Source: Halorubrum saccharovorum DSM 1137
Lineage (GTDB): Archaea; Halobacteriota; Halobacteria; Halobacteriales; Haloferacaceae
NCBI RefSeq assembly: GCF_000337915.1
Contig: NZ_AOJE01000013.1
Location: 1-43,791, forward strand
Direction of reading: 5' to 3'
DNA: 43,791 nucleotides
Position 1 is the first letter of the stretch. Each line of letters opens with the position of its first letter. Below the pieces are notes generated by a model. The model searched no databases, was not told where the DNA came from, and saw nothing but the letters and a program-made list of their open reading frames with translations. Position numbers and translations under genes: made by a program. Shown one piece after another: positions 6,001 through 9,976 of the stretch.

Positions 6001-6100
6001 ACCACGACCTCTCGCCGACCCTCCATAAACAATGCGGTAGTTTCCTGTTTATTTCGGGCGAGAAGTCGCGGTTCCGGGTGAGAGAACCGATCGGCGACGG

Positions 6101-6211
6101 GCGAGGCGACAGGCAACCGAGGCGACGACAAGCGAGGCGACAGGCAACCGAGGCGACGACAAGCGAGGCGACAGGCAACCGAGGCGACGACAAGCGAGGC
6201 GACGGCAAGCG
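6101..6211. repeat. 31-base tandem repeat, three copies plus a partial copy
   Basis: Three consecutive, essentially identical 31-base units run 6101-6131, 6132-6162 and 6163-6193, followed by a degenerate partial copy to about 6211. Each unit has two half-like parts, GCGAGGCGACAGGCAACC and GAGGCGACGACAA. The array ends just before the helicase TATA element at 6216-6220. It is open in the helicase reading frame, which artificially extends that frame, but the promoter position argues against translation. Confidence 0.92.
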
Positions 6212-6212
6212 A

Positions 6213-6222
6213 GGGTTTAATT
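6213..6222 (+). promoter_or_regulatory. Promoter element deciding the helicase start
   Basis: GGGTTTAATT stands out in GC-rich DNA right after the tandem repeat. Its centre is ~27 bases before an in-frame GTG at 6246. This makes the GTG the likely leaderless start and places the repeat array outside the coding sequence. Confidence 0.55.
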
Positions 6223-6245
6223 CCGAGAGCGCGCCAGGGGAAGTC

Positions 6246-8171
6246 GTGGACCCCGATCGGATCCCCGCCGAATTCCCCGCCCCGAGCTTCCGCGGGGCAC
6301 AGGAGCGGGCGCTCGCGGACATCCGCGACGCGTTCGCCGCCGGTAACGACGTGGTCTTGGTGCGCGCGCCGACCGGCAGCGGCAAGTCCCTCCTCGCGCG
6401 GGCAATCATGGGCGCGTCGGCCACCGTCGACGAGACGGCCCCCAGCGAGGCGACCGGCGCCTACTACACCACCCCGCAGGTGTCGCAGATCGACGACGTG
6501 GAGGCCGACGACCTGCTCGACGACCTGGCGGTGATCCGGGGGAAATCGAACTACGACTGCATCCTCCCCGGCGAGCACGACACGCCGGTCAACCGCGCGC
6601 CCTGCGTCCGCCAGCAGGGGTTCGACTGCTCCGTGAAACACCGGTGCCCGTACTTCTCCGACCGCGCCATCGCCTCCGGGAACCGCTACGCGGCGATGAC
6701 CCTCGCCTACTTCATGCGGACCGCCGGCTCGGAGGTGTTCCGCAAGCGCGACGCCGTCGTGATCGACGAGGCGCACGGGCTCGCGGAATGGGCGGAGATG
6801 TACGCGACGATCGAGCTCTCGCCCGACCGCGTCCCGGTGTGGGACGACGTGAGCGTCCCGGACGTGGAGGCCGACGCGGGCCCGGAGGAGGACGCGCTCG
6901 ACCGCACCGCCCGCTTCGTCGCCTCCCTCCGCGATGTCGCGAAGCGCGCGAAAGACGAGCTGACCGGGCGGCCCGAACTCGACCGCGAGGAGGTGGCGCG
7001 TCGCGACCGCCTACAGGAACTCATCAGCGAGCTCGGCTGGTTCCTGGAGGACTACCGAGACCCGGAGTCGCCGACGACGTGGGTCGTCGACCAGCCCGAC
7101 GGCGAGGGGTCGGCGCTCGCGATCAAACCCCTCGATCCGGCCCGCTACCTCCGGCACACCGTGTGGGATCGCGGGAACAAGTTCGCGCTGCTGTCCGCCA
7201 CCATCCTCTCGAAGGAGGCGTTCTGCCGCGGGGTCGGCCTCGACCCCGCGAACGTCGCCCTCGTCGACGTCGAGCACACCTTCCCGCTCTCGAACCGGCC
7301 CCTGTACGACGTGACGCAGGGGTCGATGACCTACGAGCACCGCGACGAGACGGTGCCGAAGATCGCCCGGCTGATCGTCCGCCTGATGGCCGAACACCCG
7401 GACGAGAAGGGGCTCATCCACGCGCACTCGTACGACATCGCCGGGCGGCTCACCGAGCTGCTGGGCGAGTTCGGCGTCGCCGCACGGGTCCGGCGACACG
7501 ACCGCGCGAACCGGGACGCGGAGCTGTCGGCGTGGAAGGCCAGCGACGACCCGGAGGTGTTCGTCTCCGTGAAGATGGAGGAGGCGCTCGACCTGAAAGG
7601 CGACCTCTGCCGGTGGCAGGTGGTGTGTAAGGCCCCGTACCGCAACACCAACGACTCGCGGGTCGCCCGCCGGCTCGCCGACGACCAGTGGGCGTGGTAC
7701 CACCGGACCGCGCTCCGGACCGTCATCCAGGCGTGCGGCCGGGTCGTCCGCGCGCCCGACGACCGCGGCGCGACGTACCTCGCGGACGACTCGCTGCTCG
7801 ACCTCTTCGACCGCGCGAAGGCCGACACGCCGCCGTGGTTCCGCGATCAGATCGACGCGATGACGACGCCGACGCTGCCCGACTTCGACCCCGACGCCGC
7901 GCTCGCCGGGATCGACGCCGATCCGTCCGGCCCGTCGCGGGCGACCCGGCGCGGGGGAACGACTCTCGGCGGGGAGGCGAGCGGAGGAGAGAGCGGAGGC
8001 GGGAGCCGCAAAGGCGGCCCGCGAGCGAACGGCTCGGGAGGGTCCGGCGGGACGGAAACGGGAGCGACCGACGGGACGGGCGGTAAAGGCGAAACGACGC
8101 GCACGCGCTCGGAGGCGGACGCGGAGCGCCGGGAGGATCACCCCCTTTCCGACGTCTGGGGCGACGGCTGA
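6246..8171 (+). CDS. XPD/DinG-like iron-sulfur DNA helicase
   Basis: A 641-residue superfamily 2 helicase of the Rad3/XPD/DinG group, expected to unwind DNA 5' to 3' in repair or replication. Walker A is APTGSGKS at residues 41-48. The four cysteines expected of the [4Fe-4S] domain are C105, C120, C128 and C134. DEAH is at 174-177, and motif VI is QACGRVVR near residue 495. The C-terminal ~110 residues are Gly/Ser/Arg-rich and look disordered, ending in an acidic LSDVWGDG. I use the GTG at 6246 because of the TATA element at 6213-6222; the frame is open upstream only because the 31-base repeat lacks stops there. A role in nucleotide-excision repair is inference from the family. Confidence 0.9.
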   Translation: MDPDRIPAEFPAPSFRGAQERALADIRDAFAAGNDVVLVRAPTGSGKSLLARAIMGASATVDETAPSEATGAYYTTPQVSQIDDVEADDLLDDLAVIRGKSNYDCILPGEHDTPVNRAPCVRQQGFDCSVKHRCPYFSDRAIASGNRYAAMTLAYFMRTAGSEVFRKRDAVVIDEAHGLAEWAEMYATIELSPDRVPVWDDVSVPDVEADAGPEEDALDRTARFVASLRDVAKRAKDELTGRPELDREEVARRDRLQELISELGWFLEDYRDPESPTTWVVDQPDGEGSALAIKPLDPARYLRHTVWDRGNKFALLSATILSKEAFCRGVGLDPANVALVDVEHTFPLSNRPLYDVTQGSMTYEHRDETVPKIARLIVRLMAEHPDEKGLIHAHSYDIAGRLTELLGEFGVAARVRRHDRANRDAELSAWKASDDPEVFVSVKMEEALDLKGDLCRWQVVCKAPYRNTNDSRVARRLADDQWAWYHRTALRTVIQACGRVVRAPDDRGATYLADDSLLDLFDRAKADTPPWFRDQIDAMTTPTLPDFDPDAALAGIDADPSGPSRATRRGGTTLGGEASGGESGGGSRKGGPRANGSGGSGGTETGATDGTGGKGETTRTRSEADAERREDHPLSDVWGDG

Positions 8172-8245: not shown

Positions 8246-8329
8246 CTACAGGAGCGAGACGCCCCACGCGGCCATGGAACTGACCATGAGGAACGCGAAG
8301 AACAGCGCGATCAACTGTTGTCTGTCCAT
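8246..8329 (-). CDS. 27-residue membrane microprotein
   Basis: A short frame on the minus strand encodes 27 residues: MDRQQLIALFF, a hydrophobic stretch through FLMVSSMAAW, then GVSLL and a stop. A charged N-terminus followed by one transmembrane-length helix suggests a single-pass membrane peptide. A TTATCA element at ~8354-8359 on the same strand lies ~26 bases before the ATG, as in a leaderless gene. I recall very similar tiny hypothetical proteins in other haloarchaea, but could not check this here. The function is unknown. Nothing else explains the 370-base gap between the helicase and the next gene. Confidence 0.65.
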   Translation of the reverse strand: MDRQQLIALFFAFLMVSSMAAWGVSLL

Positions 8330-8439
8330 GCACCGGCTACGGCCGCAGAGCGTGATAACTCCTGCGGGCGCGGGCCGCCGGACGGGTCAGCGCCGCCGAC
8401 TCCGGACAGCGCCGGCCGGTCGGGGCGACCCGGAACGTA

Positions 8440-8545
8440 TTATATTACCACGGACTGATCAATCGTCAATATATATCATATAAGGTGTATCAGGAACCTC
8501 AGTCAATTAGTAACCTTCATAAACCTTCACGCTACTACCTTAGGT
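8440..8545 (+). promoter_or_regulatory. AT-rich promoter region of the 63-residue protein
   Basis: About 100 bases contain several AT-rich runs (TATTATATTACC, CAATATATATCATATAAGG) in sharp contrast to the flanks. The element nearest the gene, TTCATAAACC at ~8515-8524, is ~27 bases before the ATG at 8546, giving a leaderless start. The further AT-rich blocks could be extra promoters or regulator sites. Confidence 0.5.
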
Positions 8546-8737
8546 ATGGCAACGAAGGGGCTGGCGACCGCGCTGACGCTGTACGGGGCGCGAACACTGA
8601 CACTCTCTCAGGCCGCCGCGCAGGCCGGGGTCAGCGAGGCTGAGTTCGTCGAGCAGTTGGAGCGCCGCGGGATCGACGTGACGGAATCGGAGCGCGCCGC
8701 CGCCCTCGGAGAGGAGCAGACCGCCCGCGCGGACTGA
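8546..8737 (+). CDS. 63-residue UPF0175/DUF7317-like protein
   Basis: The protein begins MATKGLATALTLYGARTLTLSQAAAQAGVS and continues with a second helix (EAEFVEQLERRGIDV). The pattern 'GTLTLSQAA..AG' followed by 'LERRGI' is that of UPF0175/DUF7317 haloarchaeal small proteins, which resemble a helix-turn-helix DNA-binding domain. The last ~15 residues are an acidic tail. It has its own AT-rich promoter region and no operon partner. A regulatory or antitoxin-like role is possible by family resemblance, but no toxin gene is adjacent. Confidence 0.7.
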   Translation: MATKGLATALTLYGARTLTLSQAAAQAGVSEAEFVEQLERRGIDVTESERAAALGEEQTARAD

Positions 8738-8813: not shown

Positions 8814-8870
8814 CGACGCCCGAGAATCCGACCCGACGCCCGAGAATCCGACCCGACGCCCGCGACGGCC
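8814..8870. repeat. 20-base tandem repeat, two copies plus partial
   Basis: CGACGCCCGAGAATCCGACC occurs at 8814-8833 and again at 8834-8853, followed by a partial copy reaching the end of the NMD3-like gene. It lies in the gap between two convergent genes, against the stop codon of the minus-strand gene. Confidence 0.85.
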
Positions 8871-9976
8871 TACTCCTCGGGGACGAGGTGGACCTCGCCG
8901 CCGTGCTCGAACGCGAGCACCGTGTCGGCGTCGCCGTCGACGAAGTCGGGGTTCGGGACCGTCTTCGCCTCGTAGGTGACCGGGTCGAGCACCTGGATGG
9001 CGTTCTCGTCTTCCACGGTCACTACCGTCGTCTCCGCGGCGTCGTCGCGCCGCCCGAGCCGGGTCGCGTCCGGGGCCGCCGCGTCCTCGAACTCGGAGGT
9101 GTACTCCGCGCCGGTAGCGAGGCGAACGCCCCGAAGCCGACCGGAGACGCTCGTGACGAGCACGGGCCCGTCGCCGTCCTCGGGGTCGATTATCTCGCCC
9201 GCGGCGTAGCGGGGGAGGCGGACCGCGAACGTAACCCGGTACACCTCGTTGCCGTCGCCGTCCTCGGTGACGAGCGTCGGGTACGACTCGAAGCTCCCGC
9301 CGAGCGCCTCCGTGATCCGCGTCGCGACGTTCTGCGCGAGCCGGTTCGAGGAGAGCTTGACGTCCGGCCCGTCGTCGGTCTCTTTCACCTCCGTGATGAA
9401 CGCCTCGCGGTCGCCGTCGGCCTCCTGATCGGCGACGTACGACTCGGCGATGTCGAGCGCCTCGGCGCGCTCCGCGGGCGTCAGGTCGCGCTCGTCCGCG
9501 CGGACCTGCACGATCCCGGCGTAGTAGCCGCCGGCGATCCGGCCGCAGCGGTCGCAGGTTCCCCGCGAGATCTTGACCGGGACGGTGACCTCCGCCGAGC
9601 GGAGCGTCCCGCGGACCACGCCGGAGAACCGGCAGTGCATCCGGACGTTGTTCTCGTCGACCTGCTCGGGCTCGACGCCCCACTCGACCTCTTCGGCGTC
9701 GACGTGGACGCCGAGCGCCTCCGCGACCTCGTCGACGGCGACGTCGGTGTAGTCGCGCGCGCCCACGTCCCGCCACGACTCGCCGCGGCGGACCGCGCCG
9801 CAGCCGGAACAGACCAGCACCTCGATCCGGTCGGGCGCGTCGACCAGCTCGAAGTCCTCGAAGTAGCAGTCGTCACACAGCAGCGCGTCCCGCCCTCGGG
9901 GGTCGCCGGGAAGCGGCTCGCGCCGCTCCGGGACGGCGTCGCCACACCGGGGACAGAACTCCCGCGACTCGCTCAT
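8870..9976 (-). CDS. NMD3-domain zinc protein
   Basis: A 368-residue protein whose N-terminal half carries repeated zinc-binding CxxC pairs: CPRCGD and CDDCYF, then [10 protein letters not shown], and later [12 protein letters not shown]. This arrangement and the [10 protein letters not shown] segment are typical of archaeal homologues of NMD3, the eukaryotic adaptor for export of the large ribosomal subunit. The C-terminal half is beta-rich and acidic and contains the OB-like region. In archaea there is no nuclear export, so a role in ribosome assembly or 50S quality control is inferred. The ATG at 9976 is divergent from the PDCD5 gene. Confidence 0.87.

Follow-up and report, generated by a model that had tools for sequence, protein, structure and literature searches.

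Can a reading frame of only 27 codons, lying between longer genes of a haloarchaeal genome, be a real gene, and if so, with which part of the cell does its product work? This question is raised by a stretch of 43,791 nucleotides from Halorubrum saccharovorum DSM 1137, analysed as a whole and called the window here, in which an unlisted membrane microprotein with a leaderless promoter had been proposed on the minus strand. The following features of the window are needed to answer it:

8246..8329, minus strand: microprotein gene, 27 codons and TAG, product MDRQQLIALFFAFLMVSSMAAWGVSLL
8330..8365, minus strand: core promoter span; over the class its AT-rich positions are chiefly -31 to -26 and -11 to -9, and position -1 is a pyrimidine
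8353..8358, minus strand: TATA-like element TTATCA, with TTAT (8355-8358) at -29 to -26 from the ATG
6078..8171, plus strand: Rad3/DinG-like helicase ORF, convergent with the microprotein gene and its commonest neighbour in other genera
8546..8737, plus strand: UPF0175-like gene of 63 aa, divergent from the microprotein gene and found here in 8 compared loci
8870..9976, minus strand: NMD3-family gene, the neighbour ranking second in constancy over the class

Conservation and selection

Translation of the minus strand confirms the frame of the original prediction, with the 27 residues of MDRQQLIALFFAFLMVSSMAAWGVSLL between an ATG and a TAG. Residues 6-27 form one hydrophobic stretch with a mean Kyte-Doolittle value of 2.16, in agreement with the single transmembrane-length peptide that had been claimed, and hydropathy describes the product as a single hydrophobic helix without a soluble domain. 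The helix carries the motif A8-x3-A12-x-L14-M15-V16-x-S18-x2-A21. In all sequences read across the class the microprotein has a length of 27-29 aa and starts with ATG.

A tBLASTn search with the 27 residues, the check originally suggested, recovers the frame throughout Halorubrum (32 of 35 genomes, no internal stop, E<=1.7e-8) and far beyond the genus. The single sequence matches 207 of the 292 genomes of the class at E<=0.1, while a family profile made from 51 diverse microprotein sequences (alignment A1) matches 288 of them at E<=1 and 262 at E<=1e-7; the strongest matches of this profile to anything but the microprotein lie at about 1e-6 to 1e-5. The reach of the microprotein is far wider than had been proposed. 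It is present in single copy per genome in Halorubrum and in the class, and it sits on the chromosome in a conserved context, spread class-wide. Searches outside the class returned weak matches only, mostly within longer frames and with no convincing short ORF, and the plasmids and phages searched gave no match. In Halorubrum laminariae R60 (G033:C23; L198, L222), NMD3 and the microprotein occur twice on one scaffold, about 41 kb apart and with identical scores; this reflects a large duplication or else an artefact of the assembly.

Selection acts at the level of the protein. Across Halorubrum, where a dN/dS analysis had been called for, the ratio is about 0.26 (34 distinct sequences), and pN/pS is 0.30 in the microprotein frame compared with 0.5-2.9 for the remaining five, so that a coding pattern is seen only in this frame. 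The lack of a conserved frame, or indels breaking it in relatives, had been named as findings that would speak against the gene; neither was observed, and the 37 Halorubrum sequences searched for frame-breaking indels hold none. As the frame is conserved in 32 of 35 Halorubrum genomes and across the class, a chance ORF can be excluded. Among the 51 diverse sequences M1, A8, M15 and S18 are invariant and L14 is kept in at least 90%, with deviations from the invariant pattern in some sequences read later (e.g., L267 and L270). Conservation along the microprotein follows a periodicity of 103-110 degrees per residue (p 0.03-0.005), which places A8, F/L11, M15, S18 and Y/W22 on one helix face. Frame conservation, the low dN/dS and the promoter pattern all support the claim of a coding gene, and the ORF at 8246-8329 is almost certainly a real protein-coding gene.

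Promoter and genomic surroundings

In Haloferax volcanii, 72% of protein-coding transcripts are leaderless, with a TTWT element, a WW at -10 and transcription starting at the ATG (PMC4983044). The microprotein gene likewise has TTWT about 27 nt and WW about 10 nt upstream of its ATG. The predicted TATA-like element at the spacing of neighbouring genes is borne out, since its TTAT at -29 to -26 is comparable to TTCATAAA at about -29 to -23 of the gene at 8546, and the position of TTAT is in keeping with a leaderless transcript. The proposed leaderless promoter also fits the class at large: 58 diverse sequences keep the elements at leaderless spacing, with 95% A/T at -26 and, almost without exception, T or C at -1, while the sequence between the -26 and -10 regions is little conserved. 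An AT-rich region at about 8436-8545 lies upstream of the 63-aa UPF0175-like gene.

Genomic context was compared over 57 loci from other genomes together with the window. The microprotein gene is usually found tail-to-tail with the Rad3/DinG-like helicase, near NMD3 and often near a gene which we take, from a reading of its sequence and without a database match, to encode a Trm5-like methyltransferase; the stretch fetched holds the helicase in 38, NMD3 in 34 and the Trm5-like gene in 25 of the compared loci, the latter two usually upstream of the microprotein gene on the same strand. In the window, the true start of the helicase ORF is probably downstream of the listed one. A role in an operon or as a leader peptide was considered and rejected, as the microprotein gene is convergent with its downstream neighbour. 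With its own promoter, and with other sites in several lineages (e.g., L049, L053, L058 and L095), the gene can best be taken as an independent unit, and its neighbours were therefore not used to assign a function. The compared loci and the window give no link to export genes.

Some loci differ in their surroundings. In L066, L069, L074, L078 and L099, genes for a secreted subtilase-like protein and a smaller secreted protein lie upstream, replacing NMD3 and Trm5, and the microprotein profile gives a score to a signal peptide containing AVVFALLMVTS in L069 and in L074. In L058 (G037), long genes with pilin-like N-termini flank the microprotein gene on both sides.

In Halorubrum halophilum B8 (G003) both the microprotein and the helicase are missing from the whole assembly; at the corresponding place (L160, L165, L179) NMD3 is kept and followed by unrelated sequence, and the 63-aa gene is also gone. 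This is a natural loss of the locus, and the microprotein is therefore dispensable there. Its loss in Halorubrum halophilum and in a few other lineages shows that they can do without it. In the other two Halorubrum genomes without the microprotein, the site coincides with the end of a contig or with a missing region, while in five genomes (G054, G160, G156, G279 and G212) the helicase is present with no recognisable microprotein nearby.

Likeness to surface-glycoprotein signal peptides

The NCBIfam family TIGR04207 (halo_sig_pep), which describes the signal peptides of haloarchaeal surface glycoproteins, matches 41 of the 51 microproteins, albeit weakly (best E 1.5e-6), while every other NCBIfam family matches at most four; the TIGR04207 model, searched over the genome, picks up the window ORF. 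The likeness lies in the motif A-x3-A-x-L-M-V-x-S-x2-A, which is common to both and in the same register, as a comparison of the signal-peptide cores AVFLAALMVFSVFAGTVAF and, in a Halorubrum, AVFFAAIMVVSMVAIGFAA with ALFFAFLMVSSMAAWGVSL of the microprotein illustrates. The microprotein thus has the hydrophobic core A-x3-A-x-[LI]-M-V-x-S of the family, and the window protein reaches 22.0 bits against a curated cut-off for membership of 24.6. Behind a TIGR04207 signal peptide come a cleavage site and the mature secreted protein, on frames of mostly about 750 aa or more, whereas the ORF of the microprotein ends at residue 27-29 in every sequence read. By contrast with these signal peptides, the microprotein stands alone, carries Y/W at position 22, lacks an A-x-A site and begins with MDRQQ instead of M-T...K-x-R.

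Several controls bear on this likeness. Signal peptides score 11-29 bits on the microprotein profile and their core-shuffled versions at most 4 on average (mean z 8), and 16 of the 18 distinct signal peptides, which were TIGR04207 matches filtered by a loose motif pattern and hence mildly selected, beat all 200 shuffles. In the reverse test none of 100 shuffles reached the real score for 41 of the 51 microproteins. When the register is shifted by up to 3 positions, the mean score drops from +34 (offset 0) to -0.4 or less. In several complete haloarchaeal genomes the best secondary matches of the microprotein profile coincide with the TIGR04207 matches. Among 1545 hydrophobic segments in 1.6 Mb of haloarchaeal sequence, a score of 18 bits is reached, microproteins apart, by only two (L069, L074); each resembles the signal peptide of a secreted protein whose gene lies close to the microprotein. 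As generic haloarchaeal hydrophobic segments lack the motif, mere adaptation to the membrane does not readily explain the likeness, which is probably meaningful. Co-variation between the microprotein and signal peptides of the same genome gave z 4.5, but it cannot be separated from phylogenetic noise because wrong registers reach |z| up to 3.9; within families, one wrong register equalled the correct one.

Two genera of the same family show opposite patterns. In genus g5 of family f5, six of the eight genomes searched (G038, G188, G233, G257, G270 and G273) keep the microprotein but show no TIGR04207 signal at E<=0.01, and a seventh falls below the cut-off; nearly all other haloarchaea searched, unlike genus g5, have TIGR04207 signals. 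Genus g5 may be a lineage that has no classical S-layer glycoprotein. In genus g20, also of family f5, TIGR04207 signals are present and the microprotein is absent. Therefore, the microprotein is not tied specifically to the S-layer glycoprotein, and no obligate link exists between it and the TIGR04207 signals. This implies that if its partner is export machinery, it is general machinery and not the S-layer glycoprotein.

Possible roles and comparison with known systems

The favoured reading, to which we would nevertheless give somewhat less than an even chance, is that this leaderless, class-wide gene encodes an uncleaved, signal-peptide-like peptide that docks on signal-handling machinery. 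The peptide would insert as a single pass with its N-terminus (MDRQQ) inside and would stay in the membrane uncleaved. The helix face of A8, F/L11, L14, M15, S18 and A21 is the same as in the hydrophobic core of the signal peptides of haloarchaeal surface proteins, and through it the peptide could dock on machinery that also receives the signal peptides of surface proteins. Candidate docking sites would be the lateral gate of the translocon, a membrane protease (for instance a rhomboid) or a type I signal peptidase, of which H. volcanii has Sec11a and Sec11b (PMC2913515). The assignment of the partner to the export or signal-processing machinery is tentative, and the microprotein might act there as a small permanent accessory or modulator. 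A more specific form is rather unlikely: in it, a mimic of a signal peptide that cannot be cleaved, carried by nearly all haloarchaea, would occupy or gate the export apparatus of the surface-layer proteins; if true, archaeal cell-wall export would be tuned by a peptide of 27 residues. To our knowledge, no dedicated small factor for S-layer export exists in archaea, and the match to the signal peptide of surface proteins provides a testable link to this process.

Docking on the export machinery has an equally live rival in an unrelated membrane complex. The microprotein could be a single-helix subunit or regulator of another core complex (respiratory, ATP synthase or transporter), its likeness to signal peptides being a convergence on a kind of helix favoured by the membranes or the insertion machinery of haloarchaea, and we consider this quite possible, if short of an even chance. 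In bacteria, KdpF and CydX are small single-pass membrane subunits or regulators, and a stand-alone, single-copy gene with one conserved helix face resembles known small subunits. The persistence of the microprotein in genus g5 without TIGR04207-type signals and the finding of no export genes nearby point in the same direction. Against such a subunit stand the motif itself, which haloarchaeal hydrophobic segments in general lack, and the finding of no similar Pfam family or solved chain.

The other explanations fare worse. Type I toxins are small and hydrophobic, and in size and computed hydropathy the microprotein is like them; a role as the toxin in a type I toxin-antitoxin pair, or as some related selfish element, is nevertheless very unlikely for a single-copy, class-wide gene in a conserved chromosomal context with no plasmid or phage match, which lacks the mobile or multi-copy distribution of such toxins. 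The resemblance to a signal peptide could also suggest a processed or secreted signalling peptide, but an A-x-A-like cleavage site and residues behind the helix are both absent and the length never departs from 27-29 aa, which makes this highly improbable. A non-coding feature (chance ORF, sRNA or regulatory leader) is hardly credible, for although synonymous positions are partly constrained too, with AGA as codon 3 in 31 and CAA as codon 4 in 28 of the 34 distinct Halorubrum sequences, these 5' codons fit the A/U-rich start region reported for haloarchaeal genes (PMC4983044), dN/dS is low, the protein is kept while the DNA diverges across the class, and directly downstream there is no same-strand gene for a leader to regulate.

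Whichever partner the microprotein has, the claim that it is unlisted holds at the level of family models: Pfam and NCBIfam, searched with the window protein and the 51 members, contain no model that covers it, and a search of solved-structure chains gave no homologue. Matches to V-ATPase subunit H (E 0.55-0.6) were rejected as chance. The closest Pfam entry discussed, DUF5325, gives a weak match (E 0.029, over positions 1-25 of 61) shared by 7 of the 51 members; it scores 14.6 bits against a cut-off of 25, and hydrophobic chance is the likely cause. The sequence is mentioned nowhere in the main texts of the papers searched. The microprotein is thus new at family-model level, with no function assigned by similarity, and earlier notice elsewhere is possible. 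In a recent proteomics study of H. volcanii (PMC12482152) the small proteins reported measured 31 to 100 aa, with none shorter than 25 aa, and the lower bound of 31 aa may explain why the microprotein was missed. A one-copy gene that about nine of ten haloarchaeal genomes from many families carry, but that has no family model in the libraries searched, is a clear gap in haloarchaeal annotation, and the 262 genomes offer a ready test set for methods of finding leaderless microprotein genes.

Among known systems, the microprotein can be compared with bacterial small membrane subunits of the KdpF and CydX kind, which are likewise shorter than 30-40 aa, consist of one helix with a conserved face and easily escape annotation. 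It differs from them in that no sequence similarity to them was found and that it lies outside any operon with a complex. Within the haloarchaea, HVO_0758 of Haloferax volcanii (PMC10716476) is also a tiny gene, but its product is a zinc-finger protein that carries C(P)XCG motifs, whereas the microprotein is a membrane peptide.
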